From Bacteroidales bacterium (GTDB lineage Bacteria > Bacteroidota > Bacteroidia > Bacteroidales > Muribaculaceae), in NCBI GenBank assembly GCA_910575615.1, contig CAJTEX010000024.1:1-46109 (forward strand): DNA of 46,109 bases. Direction: 5' to 3'. The notes beneath the pieces were generated by a model, which worked only from the letters and a program-made list of their open reading frames with translations, did not search any database and had not been told where the DNA came from. The position numbers and the translations under genes were made by a program. Shown here one piece after another: positions 4,946 to 46,109 of this stretch; positions within the stretch are counted from its first letter, which is position 1; every line of letters begins with the position of its first letter.

Positions 4946-5806
4946 TTATGAGATTTCTCCCCGGGGAAACGCGTCAATCATTGACCCGGGGGTGGCGTTG
5001 ACAATCGACACACCGCGCGAGGCGGCATAAGCCTGGAGGCGGTGGTAGGACCGGAAGGCAATCGCCATGCTGTCAAGCACTTCATGGAGCGGATGTCTCA
5101 CATATTCCTGGCGGATGCGTTTCTCTTCCCGCTCATCCTCCTTGTAAAAATGGGGCTGCACCGACACCACTTCATTGCGGTCGTTGACCGTCAGGGTCGA
5201 CAGCCATGAATGGTCGGCCCCGAGCAGGCATATCCGTTTGTAGCCGAGCCATATGCCGGCCATTATCGATGGCACCATCACGTTGCGGGGGCGTGGCATG
5301 CCCCGGCGCATTCCAAACATAGCGTCTTCAAACCATCCGAACCCCTCGACGGCCACGAAATTGAATGTGTCGACTTTCAGCTTCGGGTTGTCAAACAGCC
5401 GGGCCCGGCGGCGGCAGGCGGCGGGGATGAGCAATGTCATCCCGAAATCAATGGCATTGAGGTTGTCAATCAGCCGCCTCACATTCGGGTCGCTGTCGGC
5501 TTTGTCGAAAAAATGGGGGTCAGCAAGCACATAATACCGGGGCTTCACCTGCATGAACTCGGGCGAATTGGCGAAGAAGTTGACGGCAAGGGTGTCTGAC
5601 CTGCGCAACATCTCCATGTCCTCGTCAAGGCAGCGGCGCAGCGATGGGCCATTGCCGAGAATCACAAGCGGCCTGCCGTCTGCCACCCCATCAGCCCTGC
5701 GCGGCCCGCTGCCGCCGATTGCCGGAAGCAGCCGCAAGCAGCTCTTCAGCGTTGAGCCGAGGGAGTCAAAAAAACCTGCCAGTTGTGATATCGCGGAATT
5801 GCCCAT
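4946..5806 (-). CDS. GT42 (CST-I)/DUF115-like Rossmann protein, possible glycosyltransferase
   Basis: This 286-residue protein has no signal peptide. After a variable N-terminus comes VILGNGPSL (48-56), a nucleotide-binding-type loop shared by CST-I/II sialyltransferases (GT42) and DUF115 proteins. Further features in the same order as those families are YYVLADPHFF (91-100), VPSIMAGIWLGYKRICLLGADHS (split near 178-200) and a C-terminal GVSIVNATPGSM (265-276). This suggests a CMP-sugar-dependent glycosyltransferase or DUF115-type enzyme; the donor and acceptor cannot be read. A legI-like nonulosonate synthase gene lies 6 kb away, which makes a CMP-nonulosonate donor conceivable, but that is inference only. 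It has its own promoter (5843-5850) and leads into yigZ. Confidence 0.6.
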   Translation of the reverse strand: MGNSAISQLAGFFDSLGSTLKSCLRLLPAIGGSGPRRADGVADGRPLVILGNGPSLRRCLDEDMEMLRRSDTLAVNFFANSPEFMQVKPRYYVLADPHFFDKADSDPNVRRLIDNLNAIDFGMTLLIPAACRRRARLFDNPKLKVDTFNFVAVEGFGWFEDAMFGMRRGMPRPRNVMVPSIMAGIWLGYKRICLLGADHSWLSTLTVNDRNEVVSVQPHFYKEDEREEKRIRQEYVRHPLHEVLDSMAIAFRSYHRLQAYAASRGVSIVNATPGSMIDAFPRGEIS

Positions 5807-6852: not shown

Positions 6853-7795
6853 AAAGATAATCGACCCGGTAGACCCCGGAAAAATAATCGCCGAGCTGAC
6901 CCCCGAACGCTTGCTGCGCAAGACCAACAAGGGGGGCAACGAGATATATGTGGTCGACTGCCGAAACGCCCCGGAGACGATGCGCGAAATCGGCCGCCTG
7001 CGCGAAATAGCGTTCCGCGCCGCAGGCGGAGGCACCGGCAAGAGCTGCGACATCGACCAGTATGACACAATGGATCCCCCCTGCCGCCAGCTTATCGTAT
7101 GGTCGCCCGAAGACCGCCAGATAATCGGCGGCTACCGGTTCATACTCGGCAAGGACATCAGGATTGAGGATGGCCGCCCGAGGATAGCGACATCACACAT
7201 GTTCAGCTTCTCGCCCCGGTTCATCTCAGAATACCTTCCGCAGACCATCGAGCTTGGCCGGTCGTTCGTCAGGCTCGAATACCAGTCGTCGCGCGCCGGG
7301 GCAAAAGCGATATTCGCCCTTGACAACCTCTGGGACGGCCTTGGGGCCCTGACCGTGGAGCATCCCGAGATGAAATATCTCTTCGGGAAGTTCACGATGT
7401 ATCCCAGCTATGACCGCGAATGCCGCGACATGCTGCTGTATTTCCTCAACAAACATTTCCCCGACTCCGACAATCTCTGCCGACCATACTGCCCGATCGT
7501 GCGTGGCGACGGCAAAGGAAGGTTCGAGACCATGTTTCCGGGCCATGACTTCAAGGAGGATTACAAAATCCTTAATTGCGCCATCCGGGAACACGGCATA
7601 AACATACCGCCGCTGGTCAACGCGTACATGAGTCTCAGCCCGACACTCAAGGTGTTTGGCACAGCCATCAACGACGAGTTCGGCGACGTTGAGGAGACCG
7701 GGATATTCCTCACCATCGCCGAGGTCTACGAGGAGAAGAAAGACCGTCACATCAACTCATACCATCCCGAGGAGGGGCATCACGCCGACATATGA
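6845..7795 (+). CDS. glsB: Glycine N-acyltransferase for glycine lipid/commendamide (OlsB-like, GNAT fold)
   Basis: A 317-residue acyl-ACP-dependent N-acyltransferase of the OlsB/autoinducer-synthase-like GNAT group. Near the N-terminus it shows LREIAFRAAGGGTG (52-65), acidic residues CDIDQYD (68-74) and GGYRF (95-99), then the long C-terminal half typical of Bacteroidetes GlsB. The expected product is N-(3-hydroxyacyl)glycine, called commendamide when palmitoyl-based, the precursor of the O-acylated glycine lipid. The frame opens further upstream inside glsA; I chose ATG 6845, which overlaps glsA by 8 bp. Its stop overlaps the next ATG (ATGA), indicating translational coupling. Confidence 0.82.
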   Translation: MAEKIIDPVDPGKIIAELTPERLLRKTNKGGNEIYVVDCRNAPETMREIGRLREIAFRAAGGGTGKSCDIDQYDTMDPPCRQLIVWSPEDRQIIGGYRFILGKDIRIEDGRPRIATSHMFSFSPRFISEYLPQTIELGRSFVRLEYQSSRAGAKAIFALDNLWDGLGALTVEHPEMKYLFGKFTMYPSYDRECRDMLLYFLNKHFPDSDNLCRPYCPIVRGDGKGRFETMFPGHDFKEDYKILNCAIREHGINIPPLVNAYMSLSPTLKVFGTAINDEFGDVEETGIFLTIAEVYEEKKDRHINSYHPEEGHHADI

Positions 7796-9393
7796 ACCAC
7801 ACTGACTCAAAAATGGCCGTCCTGGCCCTGCTGCTGGCCTCTGTCGCAGGCCCGACGGGGACAACGCTTCACGCGGCCGAGCCAGATTTCGATTCCGGCA
7901 GCGGGATTGTGATGACAGGCCGCGCCGAGGGGATATTCGCCGCAGGCAGCGGCGGATTCGCCCCCTATTACATCGTGTCAAACAACCACGGCATCCTGAC
8001 CCAGAGCGGCGACGCCCTGCTGAGGCTTTCACTCGACAAAAGCCCTGACACCACAAAACGGTTCAGCTATGGATTCGGGGTTGACTTCCTGACCGGCTAC
8101 GCATCCTCTACCGATTATCTGCGTTTCTCGCCCTATGAGGCCGCTGGCGCGACAAAGGTGGGGGGCGGCTGGCTGGCCCCGCACTCAGAGCATCCATCGC
8201 GCATCTGGCTGCAACAGCTGTATGGCGAGGTGCGCTACCGTGGTGTTTTCCTTACCGCCGGGATGAAACAGCATTCCTCCGCGTTGCTGAGCCACACCCT
8301 GTCGAGCGGCGACCTCGTGGAGAGCGGCAACGCCCGGCCTGTTCCCGAGGTGAGAATCGGGTTCAACGACTTCCAGGACATCCCCTTCACCAACGGGTGG
8401 CTCCAGATACAGGGTGAGATTTCCTACGGCAAGATGACCGACAACGGATGGTTGCGCGACCATTACAACTATTACAACAGCCATCTCAACCAAGGGGCGC
8501 TTTACAGCTACAAGCGGTGCTATTTCCGCACAAAACCTGCGGAACGATTCTCCGCAACATTCGGCATGCAGGTCGGAGCCTTCTTCGGAGGCAAAACAGA
8601 CTGGTATGCCAACGGGGAACTGTACCGCACGGCAACATACTCAAAAGGTATCAAGCAATTTTTCAAGATGCTGCTCCCCACCGATGGCGGTCTCGAATAC
8701 TACTCGGGCAGCTCGCTCGGAAGCTGGGACGTGCTGTTACGCTACCGTCTCGATGACGGCTCAACCATAAAGGCATACATGCAGAAGCCGTGGGAGGATG
8801 GCTCAGGCATCGGGTTCCTCAACGGATTCGACGGAATATGGGGCATCCAGTTCACATCGGCCCGCAAAGGGTGGATTTCAGGAGCTGTGATAGAATACCT
8901 CGACTTCACCAACCAGTCAGGCCCGATGCACTGGGATCCGGACGACGCGCCCGGCACAGACATCACCAACCGTGCCGAAGGTGCTGACGACTATTATTAC
9001 AACCAAGAATACAACGCTTATGCCAATTACGGCATGGCGATAGGGTCGCCGTTTCTTGTATCCCCCATATACAACACCGACGGCTACCTGCAATTCACTG
9101 CAAACCGCGTAAGGGGTTTCCATGTCGGGGTGGAGGGGAACCTTTCGTCACAGGTCTCATACCGCGTCCTCGGAGGCTACCGCCGTTCATGGGGAAGCGG
9201 ACGTATCCCGTTCTTATCGCCCAAGGATGACACCTCGGTGATGGTGGAAGCATCCTATTCCCCCGCCAAGGTGCCCGGACTGGCCATAAAGGGGGCAATC
9301 GGTCTCGACCGTGGCCAACTTTACGGCAACACCACAGGCGGAATGCTCACAGTCTCATACTCAGGTCTTATCAGAATACCCAAAAAGCGATGA
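7792..9393 (+). CDS. Wzi-like capsule-assembly outer-membrane barrel
   Basis: This 533-residue protein has a cleavable signal (hydrophobic to about 28, HAA before EPDF) and a long barrel of alternating aromatic strands that ends in LIRIPKKR. The N-terminal region (FAPYYIVSNNHGIL, about 56-69) and overall length agree with the capsule assembly Wzi family. E. coli Wzi is an outer-membrane lectin that anchors capsule. Bacteroidales carry several paralogues, many outside capsule loci. Its ATG overlaps glsB and its stop overlaps the next gene (ATGA at 9390-9393), so it belongs to the glycine-lipid operon. Whether it binds polysaccharide or has a lipid-related role is unknown. Confidence 0.75.
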   Translation: MNHTDSKMAVLALLLASVAGPTGTTLHAAEPDFDSGSGIVMTGRAEGIFAAGSGGFAPYYIVSNNHGILTQSGDALLRLSLDKSPDTTKRFSYGFGVDFLTGYASSTDYLRFSPYEAAGATKVGGGWLAPHSEHPSRIWLQQLYGEVRYRGVFLTAGMKQHSSALLSHTLSSGDLVESGNARPVPEVRIGFNDFQDIPFTNGWLQIQGEISYGKMTDNGWLRDHYNYYNSHLNQGALYSYKRCYFRTKPAERFSATFGMQVGAFFGGKTDWYANGELYRTATYSKGIKQFFKMLLPTDGGLEYYSGSSLGSWDVLLRYRLDDGSTIKAYMQKPWEDGSGIGFLNGFDGIWGIQFTSARKGWISGAVIEYLDFTNQSGPMHWDPDDAPGTDITNRAEGADDYYYNQEYNAYANYGMAIGSPFLVSPIYNTDGYLQFTANRVRGFHVGVEGNLSSQVSYRVLGGYRRSWGSGRIPFLSPKDDTSVMVEASYSPAKVPGLAIKGAIGLDRGQLYGNTTGGMLTVSYSGLIRIPKKR

Positions 9394-9937: not shown

Positions 9938-10927
9938 ATGCCACGCGAAATATCTCACGCCCTCGTCACCGGTGCCGACGGTTTCATCGGCTCACATCTC
10001 GTAGACCTTCTCCTTGACCGAGGAATCAAGGTCAGGGCCCTCTGCCAGTACAACTCCTTCAATAACTGGGGATGGCTTGAAGGCAAATCCCACCCGGCGC
10101 TGGAGATTGTATGCGGAGATGTGCGCGACGCGGCTTTCTGCCGCCACATCGCCAAGGATGCAGACACGATATTCCACCTTGCCGCACTGATAGCCATACC
10201 ATACAGCTATGTGGCCCCAGAGAGCTATGTCGACACCAATGTGACCGGCACTCTCAACATCTGCCAGGCGGCGAAAGACATGGCCACGGAGCGTCTCATC
10301 GTCACCTCGACATCAGAGGTCTACGGCACGGCGCAGTATGTGCCCATCGACGAGAAGCACCCCCGTCAGCCCCAGTCGCCCTACTCGGCGACAAAGATTG
10401 GGGCCGACGCGATAGCCAAAAGCTTTTTCAACGCCTTCAACCTGCCGGTAGTCATCGCACGGCCTTTCAACACCTACGGACCGCGCCAGAGCGCCCGGGC
10501 AATCATCCCCACCATAATCTCACAGATAGCCAACGGCGAGAGGAGAATCAAGGTGGGCGACCTCTCCCCCACCCGCGACTTCAATTTCGTCGAGGACACT
10601 TGCCGAGGATTCCTGGCATTGGCCCAGGCCGACGGTATAGAGGGTGAGGAAATCAACATCGCCACCGGCACAGAGGTGACCATGGCCGAGACACTGCGTC
10701 TCATTGCCGAGCTTATGGATGCCGATGTGGAGTATGTGATCGACCCGCAACGCCTGCGACCCTCTAAGAGCGAGGTCTTCAGGCTGTGTGGAGACAACAC
10801 CAAAATCACCGGACTGACACAATGGAGGCCGCAGGTGACATTGCGCGAGGGGCTGGCCCGCACCATCGAGTGGTTTACCGACAGTGACAACCTTTCGCGA
10901 TACAAGTCTGACATCTACAACCGGTGA
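9938..10927 (+). CDS. LegB-like NAD-dependent nucleotide-sugar 4,6-dehydratase
   Basis: A 329-residue extended short-chain dehydrogenase. It has TGADGFIG (11-18) for NAD binding, STSEVYG (124-130), in which Glu127 occupies the dehydratase acid/base position, and YSATK (149-153) with the catalytic Tyr and Lys. The series TSEVYG, QSPYSATKIGAD and ARPFNTYGPRQS follows the LegB group, which makes a 4-keto-6-deoxy UDP- or GDP-GlcNAc as the first step to legionaminic acid. It starts 47 bp after the lipoprotein gene and overlaps the ATP-grasp gene. A dTDP- or GDP-sugar dehydratase is the alternative, but the legI-like neighbour favours the nonulosonate pathway. Confidence 0.75.
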   Translation: MPREISHALVTGADGFIGSHLVDLLLDRGIKVRALCQYNSFNNWGWLEGKSHPALEIVCGDVRDAAFCRHIAKDADTIFHLAALIAIPYSYVAPESYVDTNVTGTLNICQAAKDMATERLIVTSTSEVYGTAQYVPIDEKHPRQPQSPYSATKIGADAIAKSFFNAFNLPVVIARPFNTYGPRQSARAIIPTIISQIANGERRIKVGDLSPTRDFNFVEDTCRGFLALAQADGIEGEEINIATGTEVTMAETLRLIAELMDADVEYVIDPQRLRPSKSEVFRLCGDNTKITGLTQWRPQVTLREGLARTIEWFTDSDNLSRYKSDIYNR

Positions 10928-10932
10928 CCCCT

Positions 10933-11880
10933 ATGGAAAAGGTAGGCATACTTTTTCTCGGAGGGGCCAAAAGGGTCTCGATGGCCGAGAAATTCATCTC
11001 GGCGGGGCAAAGCCTCGGCGTGGAGGTGGCAATATACAGCTACGAGCTGTCACGGGAAGTGCCTGTGTCAGCCGTGGCCGGGATACTGACCGGCCTCAAA
11101 TGGGGAGACCCCGGAATATACGAAGACCTCCATGCCAAAGTCACAAGCCACAGCATCAGCCTGATGGTGCCGTTTGTCGACGGAGCAGTCGAGGTGGCCG
11201 CCCGATACCGCGACCTCTACGGCGGTGTGACAGTCCCGGCAGGCGACGCGGCCTCAGCCGCCCTGATGTTTGACAAGGTCGAGGCAGACCGCGTTTTCAG
11301 GGAGAAAGGATTGCCGGTGCCATCTTCCGACAGGTTCCCGCTTATAGCCAAACCCCGCTTCGGCTCAGCGTCAAAAGGGATAAAGATAATCGCCGACGAG
11401 ACAGAATTTCGTCCGTTCGCGGGCAACCCCGACTATCTCCTGCAGGAATACATCTCACCCCGCAGGGAAATCACTGTCGACTGTTATGTCTCCCTGGCAG
11501 GGGAAATCATAGCCGCTGTGCCCCGTTACCGTCTTGAGACCCAGGGGGGAGAGGCGTCAGTGACCGAGACTTTCCGTGACCGGGAGGTCGAGGAGCTTGC
11601 CCGGAAGACTCTCCGCCTGACCGGGCTGCGCGGCGCGGTGACCATACAGATGTTGCGCGACACCCGCGACAACAGGCTGATGCTGATGGAAATTAATCCC
11701 CGCCTGGGTGGCGGGGCTGTCTGTGCCTGCCATGCCGGGGCAGACCTGCCGGGCTTCATACTGCGCGACACTCTCGGGCTGCCCCTCGAGCCATTCGACG
11801 GCTGGAAAAGCCATATACGTATTTGCCGGTACATGTCTGAAGTGGCGTTCGATATGTCGGCATCACCCAATGACAACTGA
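10933..11880 (+). CDS. ATP-grasp ligase in the nonulosonate module
   Basis: A 315-residue (from ATG 10933) ATP-grasp enzyme of the carbamoyl-phosphate-synthase-large-chain type. An N-terminal Rossmann-like half (GILFLGGAKR) is followed by LIAKPRFGSASKGI (nucleotide lid), LLQEYI and the Mg-binding EINPRLGGG near the end. Such enzymes join a carboxylate to an amine or other nucleophile using ATP. Proteins of this type occur beside leg/neu genes in Bacteroidetes and may decorate or assemble an amino-acyl or amide group, but the substrate is unknown. A GTG at 10924 overlaps the legB-like stop (GTGA) and is the alternative start. Confidence 0.7.
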   Translation: MEKVGILFLGGAKRVSMAEKFISAGQSLGVEVAIYSYELSREVPVSAVAGILTGLKWGDPGIYEDLHAKVTSHSISLMVPFVDGAVEVAARYRDLYGGVTVPAGDAASAALMFDKVEADRVFREKGLPVPSSDRFPLIAKPRFGSASKGIKIIADETEFRPFAGNPDYLLQEYISPRREITVDCYVSLAGEIIAAVPRYRLETQGGEASVTETFRDREVEELARKTLRLTGLRGAVTIQMLRDTRDNRLMLMEINPRLGGGAVCACHAGADLPGFILRDTLGLPLEPFDGWKSHIRICRYMSEVAFDMSASPNDN

Positions 11881-11889
11881 CCATAAGCA

Positions 11890-12894
11890 ATGAAGCGAGT
11901 CATCATCATAGCCGAAGCAGGCGTGAACCATAACGGCGACTACCAGCGCGCCGTCGATATGGTGTATGCGGCCAAGGAAGCCGGAGCCGATTATGTGAAA
12001 TTCCAGACAGCGGTTCCCGAGCTTGTAATCTCCTCAGTGGCCCCAAAAGCCGAATACCAGAAAGAGACCACAGGCAACAATGAGAGCCAGCTGGAGATGT
12101 GTCGCAAGATTCATCTGAAACTTGACGATTACCTGCCGCTGTCAGAGCTGTGTCGCGAGGTTGGCATAGGATTCATGTCAACCCCTTTCGACCTTGTTTC
12201 AATTGACTGCCTGGCCCCACTGGGTATGGATTTCTGGAAGATTCCATCAGGAGAAATCACCAACCTCCCCTACCTGCGCAAAATAGCTGCAAAAGGGGGA
12301 AAAGTGATTCTGTCGACAGGCATGTCTGAGCTGCCTGAGATAGAAGCCGCCATGAATGTGATAGAAGCCGGAGGCATACAGCGCAGCGACATATCGCTAT
12401 TGCACTGCAACACCCAATACCCCACCCCGATGCGCGATGTCAACCTGCGGGCGATGGAGCAGCTCCGCTCCATGCATCCCGGAATGGTTGGATACAGCGA
12501 CCACACGACAGGCATCGAGGTGCCGGTGGCAGCTGTAGCCATGGGGGCCGAAATCATAGAGAAGCATTTCACACTTGACAAATCGCTTCCCGGCCCTGAC
12601 CACCGCGCGTCGCTTGACACCGCCGAACTGCGGGCGATGGTGAATGCCATAAGAAACATAGAGCTTGCCATCGGAGACGGAGAGAAACATGTCTCTGACT
12701 CCGAGCGCCCCAACATCGAGATTGCCCGCAAAAGCATAATAGCGGCCCGCGACATAAAAACCGGAGAGATTCTGACCGAGGAGAACCTGACGGTGAAACG
12801 TCCCGGCAATGGCATCTCTCCTATGCGATGGGACGAAGTGGTAGGCTCACGCGCCATCCGGGATTTCAAGGCAGACCACCTGATTGAAATATGA
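11890..12894 (+). CDS. NeuB-family nonulosonic acid synthase (LegI-like)
   Basis: A 334-residue PEP-condensing synthase of the NeuB/LegI/PseI family. AEAGVNHNGD (8-17) opens the TIM barrel; STPFDL, KIPSGEITN, STGM and the C-terminal barrel HFTLDKSLPGPDH with its metal/substrate residues are all in place. The last 60 residues form the antifreeze-like SAF domain. The enzyme condenses an N-acylated hexose with PEP to a nine-carbon acid. LegI is preferred over NeuB because of the LegB-like dehydratase two genes upstream. The usual partner genes (aminotransferase, acetyltransferase, hydrolysing epimerase, CMP-transferase) are absent from this window. Confidence 0.82.
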   Translation: MKRVIIIAEAGVNHNGDYQRAVDMVYAAKEAGADYVKFQTAVPELVISSVAPKAEYQKETTGNNESQLEMCRKIHLKLDDYLPLSELCREVGIGFMSTPFDLVSIDCLAPLGMDFWKIPSGEITNLPYLRKIAAKGGKVILSTGMSELPEIEAAMNVIEAGGIQRSDISLLHCNTQYPTPMRDVNLRAMEQLRSMHPGMVGYSDHTTGIEVPVAAVAMGAEIIEKHFTLDKSLPGPDHRASLDTAELRAMVNAIRNIELAIGDGEKHVSDSERPNIEIARKSIIAARDIKTGEILTEENLTVKRPGNGISPMRWDEVVGSRAIRDFKADHLIEI

Positions 12895-42905: not shown

Positions 42906-43901
42906 TTAGGGTACGACAACCTTGTCGAGGATTTCAGATATGATCTCGTCAGCCGATATGTTGTTGGCCTCAGCCTCATAGGTCAGGCCGATACGGTGGC
43001 GCATTACATCGTGACAAACGGCGCGGACATCCTCGGGGATGACATAACCGCGCTGACGCAGGAAAGCGTAAGCCTTGGCGGCACGGGCCAGGGAAATAGA
43101 CGCGCGGGGTGAGGCGCCGAAAGCAATGATGCTCTGCAGCTCGGGCAAACCGCACTCGGCGGGGAAGCGTGTCGCGAAGACGATGTCCACGATATAACGC
43201 TCGATTTTCTCGTCGATGTAAATCTTCTCGACCACCTGCTGCGCGTCGATGATGTCTTCCGGACGAAGCAGGGGCTGCACTTTGGCTTTCTTGTTGGAGA
43301 GGTTCTGGCGTATGATCAGCTTCTCCTCCTCACGGGTCGGATAACCGATGACCACTTTCAGGAGGAAACGGTCGACCTGCGCCTCAGGAAGCGGGTAAGT
43401 ACCCTCCTGCTCAATCGGGTTCTGGGTCGCCATCACAAGGAACGGCTCGTCAAGCGGGAATGTATGGTCGCCGATGGTCACCTGGCGCTCCTGCATCGCT
43501 TCCAGCAGGGCGGCCTGCACTTTGGCGGGAGCGCGGTTGATTTCGTCGGCGAGGACGAAGTTTGCGAAAATCGGACCGCGCTTCACCTGGAACTGCTCAG
43601 ACTTCACGCTGTAGACCATTGTGCCGGTCACATCGGCGGGGAGGAGGTCAGGTGTAAACTGTATGCGGCTGTATTTTGCGTCAATCAGCTGGGAAAGCGT
43701 CTTGATGGCCAATGTCTTGGCAAGACCGGGCACACCTTCGAGAAGGACATGTCCGTTGGAAAGCAACGCGATGAGCAATGATTCCACAAGGTGCTTCTGA
43801 CCTACGATGGTCTGGTCCATCCCCTGCGTGATGAGGCTTACGAAATTACCACGGCTTGCCACGAGGTCGTTGAGTTCTCTGATATTTACAGTTTCACTCA
43901 T
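42906..43901 (-). CDS. MoxR-family AAA+ ATPase
   Basis: A 331-residue AAA+ ATPase of the MoxR family: Walker A GVPGLAKT (56-63), Walker B with VLADEINRAP (Asp119, Glu120), sensor 1 ATQNP and the C-terminal lid. MoxR proteins act as chaperones that insert cofactors or mature VWA-containing complexes. The frame opens at 43943; ATG 43901 gives the conserved start. It heads the eight-gene Bat unit, with a promoter box about 100 nt upstream. Confidence 0.95.
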   Translation of the reverse strand: MSETVNIRELNDLVASRGNFVSLITQGMDQTIVGQKHLVESLLIALLSNGHVLLEGVPGLAKTLAIKTLSQLIDAKYSRIQFTPDLLPADVTGTMVYSVKSEQFQVKRGPIFANFVLADEINRAPAKVQAALLEAMQERQVTIGDHTFPLDEPFLVMATQNPIEQEGTYPLPEAQVDRFLLKVVIGYPTREEEKLIIRQNLSNKKAKVQPLLRPEDIIDAQQVVEKIYIDEKIERYIVDIVFATRFPAECGLPELQSIIAFGASPRASISLARAAKAYAFLRQRGYVIPEDVRAVCHDVMRHRIGLTYEAEANNISADEIISEILDKVVVP

Positions 43902-44105: not shown

Positions 44106-45386
44106 CTATTCCGACATGGCTTTATAAGCCTCACGGTCAGCTTTCTTTAGCGACTCCTTGCTTGACGGGTCAATGTCATATTTCGCGGCGGGGGGGATGA
44201 CCACCACCATGCCGTTCTCTAGGTTGTCGGGATCCTTGATTTTATCCTTGTTTTCCAGGTATATGTACACCCAGAACTTGGCGTTTCCATAATGGCGGCG
44301 CGACATCACCGACAGATAGTTGCCGGGCTTTACAGTGTCGGTGACGACCTTGGCCCCCTGCGGAGCGGCTGTTTCTACCATCTCCGGCATCCCTGCCGCA
44401 GCGGGGTCGTCAGCAGGCTGTTCCGGAACAGCCTCTGCCATATCCGTGGAATCTTCCAAGCAACCCGGCAACGCTTGCGCCTGCCCGGCCGCATCATCAG
44501 GGTTCCCACCGTTGTTGCGGATGAAAATCCCGTCTTCCATTACTTCAACGTTTGCAGGCAACCCAAAGTTTGAATGGCTGTATGCCAGGTATCCGGCGAC
44601 CAGCCCCAGGAGGCAAGCAGCTATGGCTGTGACAACCAGAGTGAGGGTGGTGTGGCCCACGCGTTTTATGGTCACACGACTCTCAGGCTCAAGCCTTACG
44701 GCCACCGGGGTGTCATGGTCGTGCGCAGAAAGCGCAACCGGGATATGCACAGGGGCGGCAGATGGCGCGGCGGGCTCGCAGTCACGCGCGGCAGCCTGTC
44801 TGCCTGTGGCAAACCGGGGAGGCAGAGGTGGCGGTGTCTGCGCCTGCCCAGCAGATGACACGCAGGAATCGGCGGATTCTTGAGCTGAGGTTGTGGCATC
44901 TGTTGCATCGGACTGACGGCCCGGTTGGGGCTTATCCTCCACCACTGCCTCAGCATCAGCCTCGGAAATGGCTTCAGTCTCAATGACATCAGCCTCGGAA
45001 ATGGTTTCCTGGCTGTCAGCTTCATCCATCTCATTTCCGGCCTCCTCCCCTTCCGCAGGCCCCATCGAGGAAGACATGTCCGCGTCGAGTTCGTCATCGG
45101 TCAGCGAGTCGGCAAGCTCCACAGACTCGAACATCGCGAACGGCTCGTTGACCTTTTCGGCCAAGGATGATTCAGGGGCAAACTCGACACCCGGCTTGCC
45201 ATCGACATCGGCCGCCACCTTAAAGGTGCCGAGTCCGGCGATTCTGACAAAGCCATCGGCGGCGAGCCCCTGGGTGATGACCATCGTGAATTCTTTCAGG
45301 AAAGCACCGGCGACCTCTTCGCCGCAATTCACCTTCGAGGCGAGGCGGGTGATGATTTCCGGCATTGGAATCGTGAACGTGCTCAT
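44106..45386 (-). CDS. HU-like domain - transmembrane helix - LysM protein
   Basis: A 426-residue protein with an unusual order. Residues 4-88 form an HU/IHF-like DNA-binding domain (IITRLASKVNCGEE, VRIAGLGTFKV). Residues 92-240 are a Glu/Ser/Ala/Pro-rich linker with tandem EADVIETEAISEADAE-like units. A transmembrane helix lies at about 247-269 (TLTLVVTAIAACLLGLVAGYL), preceded by basic residues (KRVGH), which predicts the N-terminus in the cytoplasm. A linker follows and residues 352-400 are a LysM domain (VKPGNYLSVMSRRHYGN to VVIPPA), which binds peptidoglycan. It overlaps the upstream HU gene (ATGA). It could tie the nucleoid to the wall. Confidence 0.85.
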   Translation of the reverse strand: MSTFTIPMPEIITRLASKVNCGEEVAGAFLKEFTMVITQGLAADGFVRIAGLGTFKVAADVDGKPGVEFAPESSLAEKVNEPFAMFESVELADSLTDDELDADMSSSMGPAEGEEAGNEMDEADSQETISEADVIETEAISEADAEAVVEDKPQPGRQSDATDATTSAQESADSCVSSAGQAQTPPPLPPRFATGRQAAARDCEPAAPSAAPVHIPVALSAHDHDTPVAVRLEPESRVTIKRVGHTTLTLVVTAIAACLLGLVAGYLAYSHSNFGLPANVEVMEDGIFIRNNGGNPDDAAGQAQALPGCLEDSTDMAEAVPEQPADDPAAAGMPEMVETAAPQGAKVVTDTVKPGNYLSVMSRRHYGNAKFWVYIYLENKDKIKDPDNLENGMVVVIPPAAKYDIDPSSKESLKKADREAYKAMSE

Positions 45387-45670
45387 TTGCGGGGGCCCTC
45401 CGAGATCCCGTTCTTTAGCCGGCCACCGGGGATAAACTCCAGCTCTACGGCGGGGGGAAGAAGCACGCGGCGACCCGTGGAGAGGTCTCTCACCACGGTC
45501 TCATTACGTTTAACCCCTTGGAATGAGCCCAACGATGGGAGTGCCAGCCTGTTGAGGTTGCCACACTCCTCTCCTACCACCTCGACAAATCCCACTAAGA
45601 GCCGTTCGGCTGTGGAGACCTCAAGGTTGAGGCGCTTGGCCATTATGTTTATGAATTGTCTGCTGTCCAA
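45383..45670 (-). CDS. HU/IHF-family DNA-binding protein
   Basis: A 95-residue HU-like protein: an N-terminal helical pair (DSRQFINIMAKRLNLEVSTAERLLVGFVEVV), then the beta-arm region (LPSLGSFQGVKRN, LSTGRRVLLPP) and the C-terminal helix (FIPGGRLKNGI). The length and layout are those of HU, although the conserved GFG is LGSF here. It probably dimerises, possibly with the HU domain of the following gene, to which it is coupled by a 4-bp overlap. A -7 promoter box lies directly upstream (45688-45695). Confidence 0.88.
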   Translation of the reverse strand: MDSRQFINIMAKRLNLEVSTAERLLVGFVEVVGEECGNLNRLALPSLGSFQGVKRNETVVRDLSTGRRVLLPPAVELEFIPGGRLKNGISEGPRK

Positions 45671-45687: not shown

Positions 45688-45695
45688 CAAAGTTA
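45688..45695 (-). promoter_or_regulatory. -7 element of the HU-like gene pair
   Basis: The minus strand reads TAACTTTG, 17 nt before the ATG at 45670. Spacing to the terminator hairpin upstream is short, so the -33 region overlaps that hairpin. Confidence 0.5.
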
Positions 45696-45707: not shown

Positions 45708-45744
45708 CAAAAAACCGCGCCGACTCTCAAAAGAATCGGCGCGG
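45708..45744 (-). terminator. Minus-strand terminator between the insertion sequence and the HU pair
   Basis: CCGCGCCGA (45715-45723) and TCGGCGCGG (45736-45744) form a 9-bp G/C-rich stem. Read on the minus strand it is followed by TTTTTTG, a U-tract. It would stop a transcript coming from the right, yet no minus-strand gene is visible up to the window edge. Confidence 0.75.
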
Positions 45745-45866: not shown

Positions 45867-45946
45867 TTTGGTCAAGTGGTAGGTTTTTAGTAACTTTATG
45901 GGTGAATATCAAACAGTTACGTTAAAAATGGAGCCACTTGACCAAA
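45867..45946. repeat. 13-bp inverted repeat around the transposase promoter and start
   Basis: TTTGGTCAAGTGG (45867-45879) has its exact complement at 45934-45946, which lies 3 nt inside the coding frame. The loop of 54 nt contains a promoter-like box (TAACTTTA, 45891-45898) and the start codon at 45928. It may be part of the element's end or an expression control. Confidence 0.6.
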
Positions 45947-46109
45947 GCCTTTCGATTGACGCGCATAAGGTCAATCACACCGCAAAAGTAATAAATAAAT
46001 TCGTTCCACAGGGCAGTATTCTGGAACGGCTGATGAATTTTGCCGCCTCAGTCCCTGATTTCCGTAGATGCGACAAAGGAAACATCCGGCATCGACTCAA
46101 CGACATCAT
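45928..46109 (+). CDS. 5' part of an insertion-sequence transposase, ISAs1-like (cut by window end)
   Basis: An open frame from ATG 45928 runs to the window edge, 60 codons without stop. Its middle reads LERLMNFAASVPDFRRCDKGN and then HRLNDI, resembling the N-terminal domain of ISAs1/H-repeat transposases (DDE_Tnp_1-associated: (I/V)PD.R......H.L.DI). The catalytic DDE part lies outside the window. A promoter-like box (45891-45898) and an inverted repeat surround the start. Family assignment rests on a short stretch and is moderately sure; the element's left end cannot be fixed. Confidence 0.6.
   Translation, partial: MEPLDQSLSIDAHKVNHTAKVINKFVPQGSILERLMNFAASVPDFRRCDKGNIRHRLNDI

Follow-up and report, generated by a model that had tools for sequence, protein, structure and literature searches.

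A conserved pair of overlapping HU-type genes in Bacteroidales, one encoding an HU domain, a single transmembrane helix and a LysM-type domain

The stretch of DNA analysed here, called the window, is a whole contig of 46,109 bases from a Bacteroidales genome of 3.13 Mb. Two genes, B and A, lie on its minus strand, B preceding A and overlapping it by 4 nt (Table 1). Upstream of B stands a terminator-like hairpin, counterparts of which were found by eye upstream of B in three related loci (L035, L036 and L037), and between hairpin and B lies the box TAACTTTG, which we take to fit the Bacteroides -7 element TAnnTTTG and which has a similar site at the same place in the same three loci. Given the hairpin and the box, B and A are probably a transcription unit of their own. 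Counted over the entire window, TANNTTTG is present 26 times where 12.6 were expected (sd 3.6), a number reached by none of 100 shuffles and an excess that agrees with a Bacteroides-type -7 box. A scan for sigma-70 consensus promoters found 3 against 1.7 expected and was uninformative, and searches of this DNA for Rfam families and tRNA genes returned no matches. Downstream of A, a gene for a MoxR-type ATPase heads a row of DUF58/Bat genes on the same strand. Elsewhere, an ORF of 70 aa (45898-46107, plus strand) runs off the contig end; this ORF and two others, of 533 aa (7792-9393, plus) and 286 aa (4946-5806, minus), have no Pfam match at E<=0.001. A gene row at 9938-12894 (plus), with a GDP-mannose dehydratase/epimerase-type gene and NeuB, is likely to direct synthesis of a nonulosonate-type surface sugar.

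Table 1. Features of the B-A locus and its neighbours, in window positions.
Feature	Position	Strand	Basis or remark
ORF B, HU-like protein, 95 aa, full beta-arm	45383..45670	-	Pfam, AF2, Foldseek
B beta-arm region, residues 51-80	45431..45520	-	alignment columns, AF2 strands
ORF A, HU-linker-TM-LysM, 426 aa	44106..45386	-	Pfam, PDB, AF2
A HU body, residues 1-83, net charge -4	45138..45386	-	Pfam, AF2, Foldseek
Turn in place of beta-arm, A residues 60-64	45195..45209	-	alignment gap, arm count, DSSP
Acidic linker, mostly disordered (predicted), A residues 84-245, net charge -26	44652..45137	-	AF2, charge
Transmembrane helix, single, A residues 246-271	44574..44651	-	AF2; N terminus inside by charge
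Periplasmic linker (predicted), acidic, A residues 272-344, net charge -13	44355..44573	-	AF2, charge
LysM fold (predicted), A residues 345-403	44178..44354	-	PDB Kbp, Foldseek, DSSP
C-terminal helix after LysM (predicted), A residues 410-425	44112..44159	-	AF2; kept in homologues
Terminator-like hairpin, 13 pairs, with T run	45715..45744	-	45 nt upstream of B
TAACTTTG, putative -7 element	45688..45695	-	between hairpin and B
MoxR-type ATPase gene	42906..43901	-	Pfam AAA_3; downstream of A; start set by MSETVNIREL of relatives

The B gene begins with TTG, at a position where relatives have ATG; TTG is also present there in L035, L036 and L037, the last two of which add an upstream in-frame ATG. 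The Pfam model Bac_DNA_binding matches B with 45.1 bits over residues 1-88 (88 of the 90 model positions), and the AlphaFold2 (AF2) model (pLDDT 92.1) predicts an HU fold with strands at 48-55, 58-61, 68-71 and 74-81, for which Foldseek returned HU structures (best E 6.7e-8). B has a net charge of +3, and its arm retains K54, R67 and R68, without proline at position 63. In A, the same Pfam model is confined to residues 10-59 (25.5 bits, cut-off 22.4). The AF2 model of A has a mean pLDDT of 70.8, with high confidence at the HU body (8-83) and at the LysM-type region (348-397), and values mostly below 50 across 113-239 of the linker; Foldseek relates the modelled HU body to HU (E 3.7e-4). The gene limits, the strand and the order HU, linker, membrane helix and LysM that an earlier note had read from the letters of this DNA are borne out.

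The pair is conserved well beyond the window. A single-sequence search gave matches in 26 of 41 genomes of relatives, including 24 of 25 of the same family, the window's own genome among them. B adjoins A in 23 of these 26 loci and, by inspection, in two more, L016 and L019 (the latter shares its contig with L049); L009 is at the edge of its contig. Of the named loci, which are the best 80 of 308 confirmed, 77 encode HU and LysM within a single ORF, so that this arrangement is not a product of chance. The three others (L073, L079 and L082) lack a full A where they are cut at contig edges, L079 also having an in-frame stop. An entire B stands before A in 75 of the 77 HU+LysM loci among these best 80 of 308 (74 by a first test, plus L049). 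The two exceptions are at contig edges: L039 shows only the last part of B, and L067 is cut inside A. The two genes are also tightly spaced, since 82 of 85 measured pairs lie within 30 nt, 43 of them overlapping and 35 by exactly 4 nt. The coupling to a second HU-like gene that had been noticed in the window is hence a property of nearly all these loci. In 148 sampled genomes of the order, at least 25 match the HU and LysM ends in one place, the remaining listed matches being mostly HU genes of 90-130 aa. Furthermore, the pair is found in another class of the phylum, in 22 of the 25 genomes sampled from one family (f40), where A has a full arm with a classic NPQTG-type tip in most. Among 29 further loci, the best 29 listed, 25 encode HU and LysM in a single ORF, and a B accompanies every one of them. 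The other four all belong to one family (f30) and combine a short B with an A that lacks LysM; L122, the sole one of the four tested, has an A that ends in SPOR. A presence count for A of at least 291 of 296 genomes was set aside, as genes with HU or LysM alone are matched as well.

The DNA-clasping beta-arm is absent from the HU domain of A, whereas B has it. Arm length, counted from the phenylalanine of the GxF motif to the conserved Asn of A, is bimodal among 96 A homologues: it is exactly 39 residues in 54 of them and 20-29 in 42, the window having 24. Aligned with armed homologues, A shows a gap of 15 residues at the arm, and AF2 with DSSP places a turn where the arm stands elsewhere. The HU domain of armless A proteins has a mean net charge of -5.1, against +0.7 for armed ones. 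As A is both armless and acidic, DNA binding by A cannot be assumed in the window's lineage, and binding by the pair, if there is any here, would take place mainly through B. Of the "HU-like DNA-binding domain" that the earlier note ascribed to A, the HU fold therefore stands, while the DNA binding is not supported. In a quick tree built without the arm columns, the arm trait needs 7 changes, of which well-supported branches require at least 3. Armless rows group together, and the smallest sets with good support that surround the window, of 4 and 12 rows, contain no armed member. Although the tree is unrooted and gives no proof of direction, loss is likelier than gain, armed forms being found in the distant f40 rows and on most deep branches of Bacteroidales.

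At the other end of A, no Pfam model matched the LysM region at E<=1. A model for LysM proteins from NCBIfam reaches E 1.9e-6, but with 28.4 bits against a cut-off of 134. The best PDB match is Kbp, over residues 329-400 (E 1.5e-6), and Foldseek aligns the modelled region with 8zex (E 1.3e-3) and with 7pvc (40% identity, rmsd 1.2). From model and sequence together, A is thus predicted to contain a LysM fold that is related in sequence to known ones. Its binding to peptidoglycan is putative, since the nearest solved relative is Kbp. As for topology, the 12 residues flanking the membrane helix hold 2 K/R on the N side and 0 on the C side; among the 96 homologues, K+R within 12 residues favour the N side in 75, show no difference in 18 and favour the C side in 3, and a hydropathy scan gives one membrane segment in 93 and none in 3. 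A would therefore cross the membrane once and, by charge bias, with its N terminus inside and LysM outside, in line with the positive-inside topology previously proposed. One relative of the same family keeps HU, linker and membrane helix and lacks LysM: its A homologue (L030, 1489-2277, genome G021) is 262 aa long and stops 11 residues past the helix, and no LysM was found in the three forward frames between it and the MoxR gene. In other related proteins (L122, L153, L160 and L162), SPOR occupies the place of LysM.

The SPOR-ended forms lead to a known protein architecture, described by the Pfam models HU-CCDC81_bac_1 and HU-CCDC81_bac_2 (PF18174 and PF18175, with SPOR as PF05036): two HU domains, the second armless, precede a linker, one membrane segment and a domain of wall type. 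Neither A nor B of the window has a match to PF18174 or PF18175 at E<=1. At E<=0.001, HU-CCDC81-type proteins occur in 64 of the 296 genomes sampled, 55 of them above the cut-off, and L160 and L162 are further fused forms recognised by custom profiles, with SPOR by Pfam. When profiles were compared by hhalign, the first HU domain (HU1) gave 59, 61 and 43% with the B-type sets against 0.8-2.6% with the A-type sets, and the second (HU2) gave 83% with armless A and 97% with SPOR-ended A. The order HU1 with B and HU2 with A is seen for B, for armless A and for SPOR-ended A, and not for full-arm Bacteroidales A. Indeed, HU2 matches Bacteroidales B better (42%) than it does the full-arm A of this order (13.5%), so that orthology domain by domain is moderate only; f40 A and f40 B give 31 and 27%. 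These fused relatives suggest, with moderate strength and by analogy, that B and A form a heterodimer. They are the best argument for the pairing, and back the idea that B is the dimer partner of A, which had been put forward from the layout of the two genes. We read the window pair as a split, LysM-ended variant of the HU-CCDC81-SPOR architecture. The window's genome also has one HU-CCDC81-type protein of its own (L152, 812-1936, G000:C8; HU-CCDC81_bac_1 60.7 bits, _bac_2 49.0 and SPOR 19.2, which is below the cut-off), and this would be another wall-linked HU system next to the LysM pair. Mutual exclusion of the two systems was considered and dropped, as this genome and two of the same order (G270 and G278) have both.

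Taken together, these observations can be read as follows. B and the HU body of A would form an HU-type heterodimer held under the inner membrane. A would cross the membrane once, its HU body remaining in the cytoplasm on a long, acidic and flexible tether that would keep the HU head mobile and off the membrane, while LysM and the C-terminal helix would sit in the periplasm, on the wall. The job of the pair would be to fasten a cytoplasmic object, in the simplest case the chromosome, to the cell wall. Where A is armed, both subunits could clasp DNA; in the window's lineage, the armless A would be mainly anchor and dimer partner, B giving the remaining contact with nucleic acid. We consider the chances of such a heterodimer, spanning to the wall and tethering the chromosome or other cytoplasmic cargo, to be about even. 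Several observations count against a tether: the HU domain of A is acidic and armless, B beside an armless A has lost many of its arm charges, LysM is nearest to Kbp, itself no wall protein, and L030 does without LysM.

The loss of charge in B is best seen against the state of its partner. Of the 96 A rows, 11 are without a B in alignment A4 and were left out of the comparison. The mean charge of the B arm is -0.6 beside an armless A (34 rows) and +4.9 beside an armed A (51 rows; Mann-Whitney p 6e-9, raw), and the arm-tip proline is missing from 27 of the 34 B rows with an armless partner, as against 1 of the 51 with an armed one. It is kept in 7/34 armless-partner, 41/42 armed Bacteroidales and 9/9 f40 rows. 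When ancestry is taken into account, the covariation of A and B is no longer clear (independent contrasts, r 0.21, p 0.053), with 3 independent pairs on supported branches and none against. Perhaps, then, B follows the arm state of A. As proof of contact between the two proteins, their co-evolution was set aside, the raw signal being strong and the phylogeny-corrected tests weak.

Some of these data also speak for another reading, in which the HU bodies have lost DNA binding and the B:A pair docks a cytoplasmic protein to the wall, for instance a division or envelope-stress factor, perhaps MoxR/Bat. The missing arm and acidic HU domain of A fit it, as do the many arm charges lost in B beside an armless A and the likeness of A, including SPOR-ended A, to HU-CCDC81_bac_2; in the eukaryotic CCDC81 branch, DNA binding has been lost. 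However, B still has its arm, and basic positions 54, 67, 68 and 86 are kept in most armless-partner rows (K54 in 32/34, R or K at 68 in 31/34). The loss of proline, for its part, says little, and was set aside as a mark of lost DNA binding, since the two canonical HU genes of the window's genome lack it too. The MoxR gene cuts both ways: it lies within 2.5 kb downstream of the pair in 45 of 70 loci with room for it but is absent from the other 25, which makes it a common neighbour of the pair and not a fixed one. We regard docking of this kind as possible, although rather unlikely.

A membrane-held transcription or signalling protein, whose LysM would sense the wall or its turnover products and whose HU end would signal to DNA, would suit the predicted topology and the MoxR/DUF58/Bat genes nearby. 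But the linkers on both sides of the helix are long, acidic and of low confidence in the model, hence poor transmitters of a signal, and no sequence-specific DNA domain was matched by Pfam or NCBIfam; this reading appears improbable. Least probable of all, and by our estimate very improbable, is a membrane-anchored HU pair with no wall link, in which LysM would be a Kbp-like sensor of ions or proteins. In its favour, no PDB entry matches better than Kbp, which according to PMC7806268 has a BON-LysM architecture with no signal sequence (the title of a reference there calls E. coli Kbp a cytoplasmic potassium sensor), and L030 has HU, linker and helix without LysM. Against it, the wall domain SPOR takes the same place in L122, L153, L160 and L162, and charge bias puts LysM outside.

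Returning to the wall-spanning B:A heterodimer, we also propose, tentatively and with appreciable doubt, a wider scenario. The pair would be a phylum-wide nucleoid-to-wall tether of two subunits, in which the arm of the anchored subunit has been lost repeatedly in gut lineages, leaving a one-armed HU dimer held at the envelope and moving away from classical clasping. Little is known of how Bacteroidota position and hold their chromosomes, and a conserved pair that could join nucleoid and wall by one membrane helix offers a direct, testable handle. Naturally occurring armed and armless versions moreover separate anchoring from grip on DNA without any design work.

In the openly licensed PMC literature we found no description of an HU-TM-LysM protein; PMC10434189 mentions, for B. 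thetaiotaomicron, a gene of the HU family and one for LysM, as separate genes. The earlier note's view that no such system had been described thus holds for that literature, but its HU-CCDC81/SPOR relatives already have Pfam models. The kind of architecture is known, and the split, LysM-ended, arm-losing variant appears to be new within the literature searched. Burroughs and colleagues, in a 2017 paper on HU/IHF clades, are reported to have predicted roles in chromosome partition for the HU-CCDC81 proteins of Bacteroidetes.

Compared with known systems, both proteins share the HU fold, by model, with the HU/IHF (DNABII) family. B is a divergent member, at 45 bits where the canonical HU genes of its own genome reach 93 and 87 (92.8 and 87.4 bits), and A departs further, being acidic, armless and fused to a membrane helix and LysM. 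Among solved structures, the LysM of A comes closest to Kbp (YgaU), with a beta-alpha-alpha-beta fold and 38-40% identity over about 52 residues, and TsaP is another LysM protein near it, of the same fold. Kbp is a BON-LysM protein without signal sequence, whereas the LysM of A follows a membrane helix predicted to be N-in. The closest system as a whole is HU-CCDC81-SPOR, with which A has in common a membrane helix followed by a wall-type domain, LysM replacing SPOR; there, HU1 and HU2 belong to one polypeptide with a SPOR end, whereas in the window they would be divided between two overlapping genes, with a LysM end.
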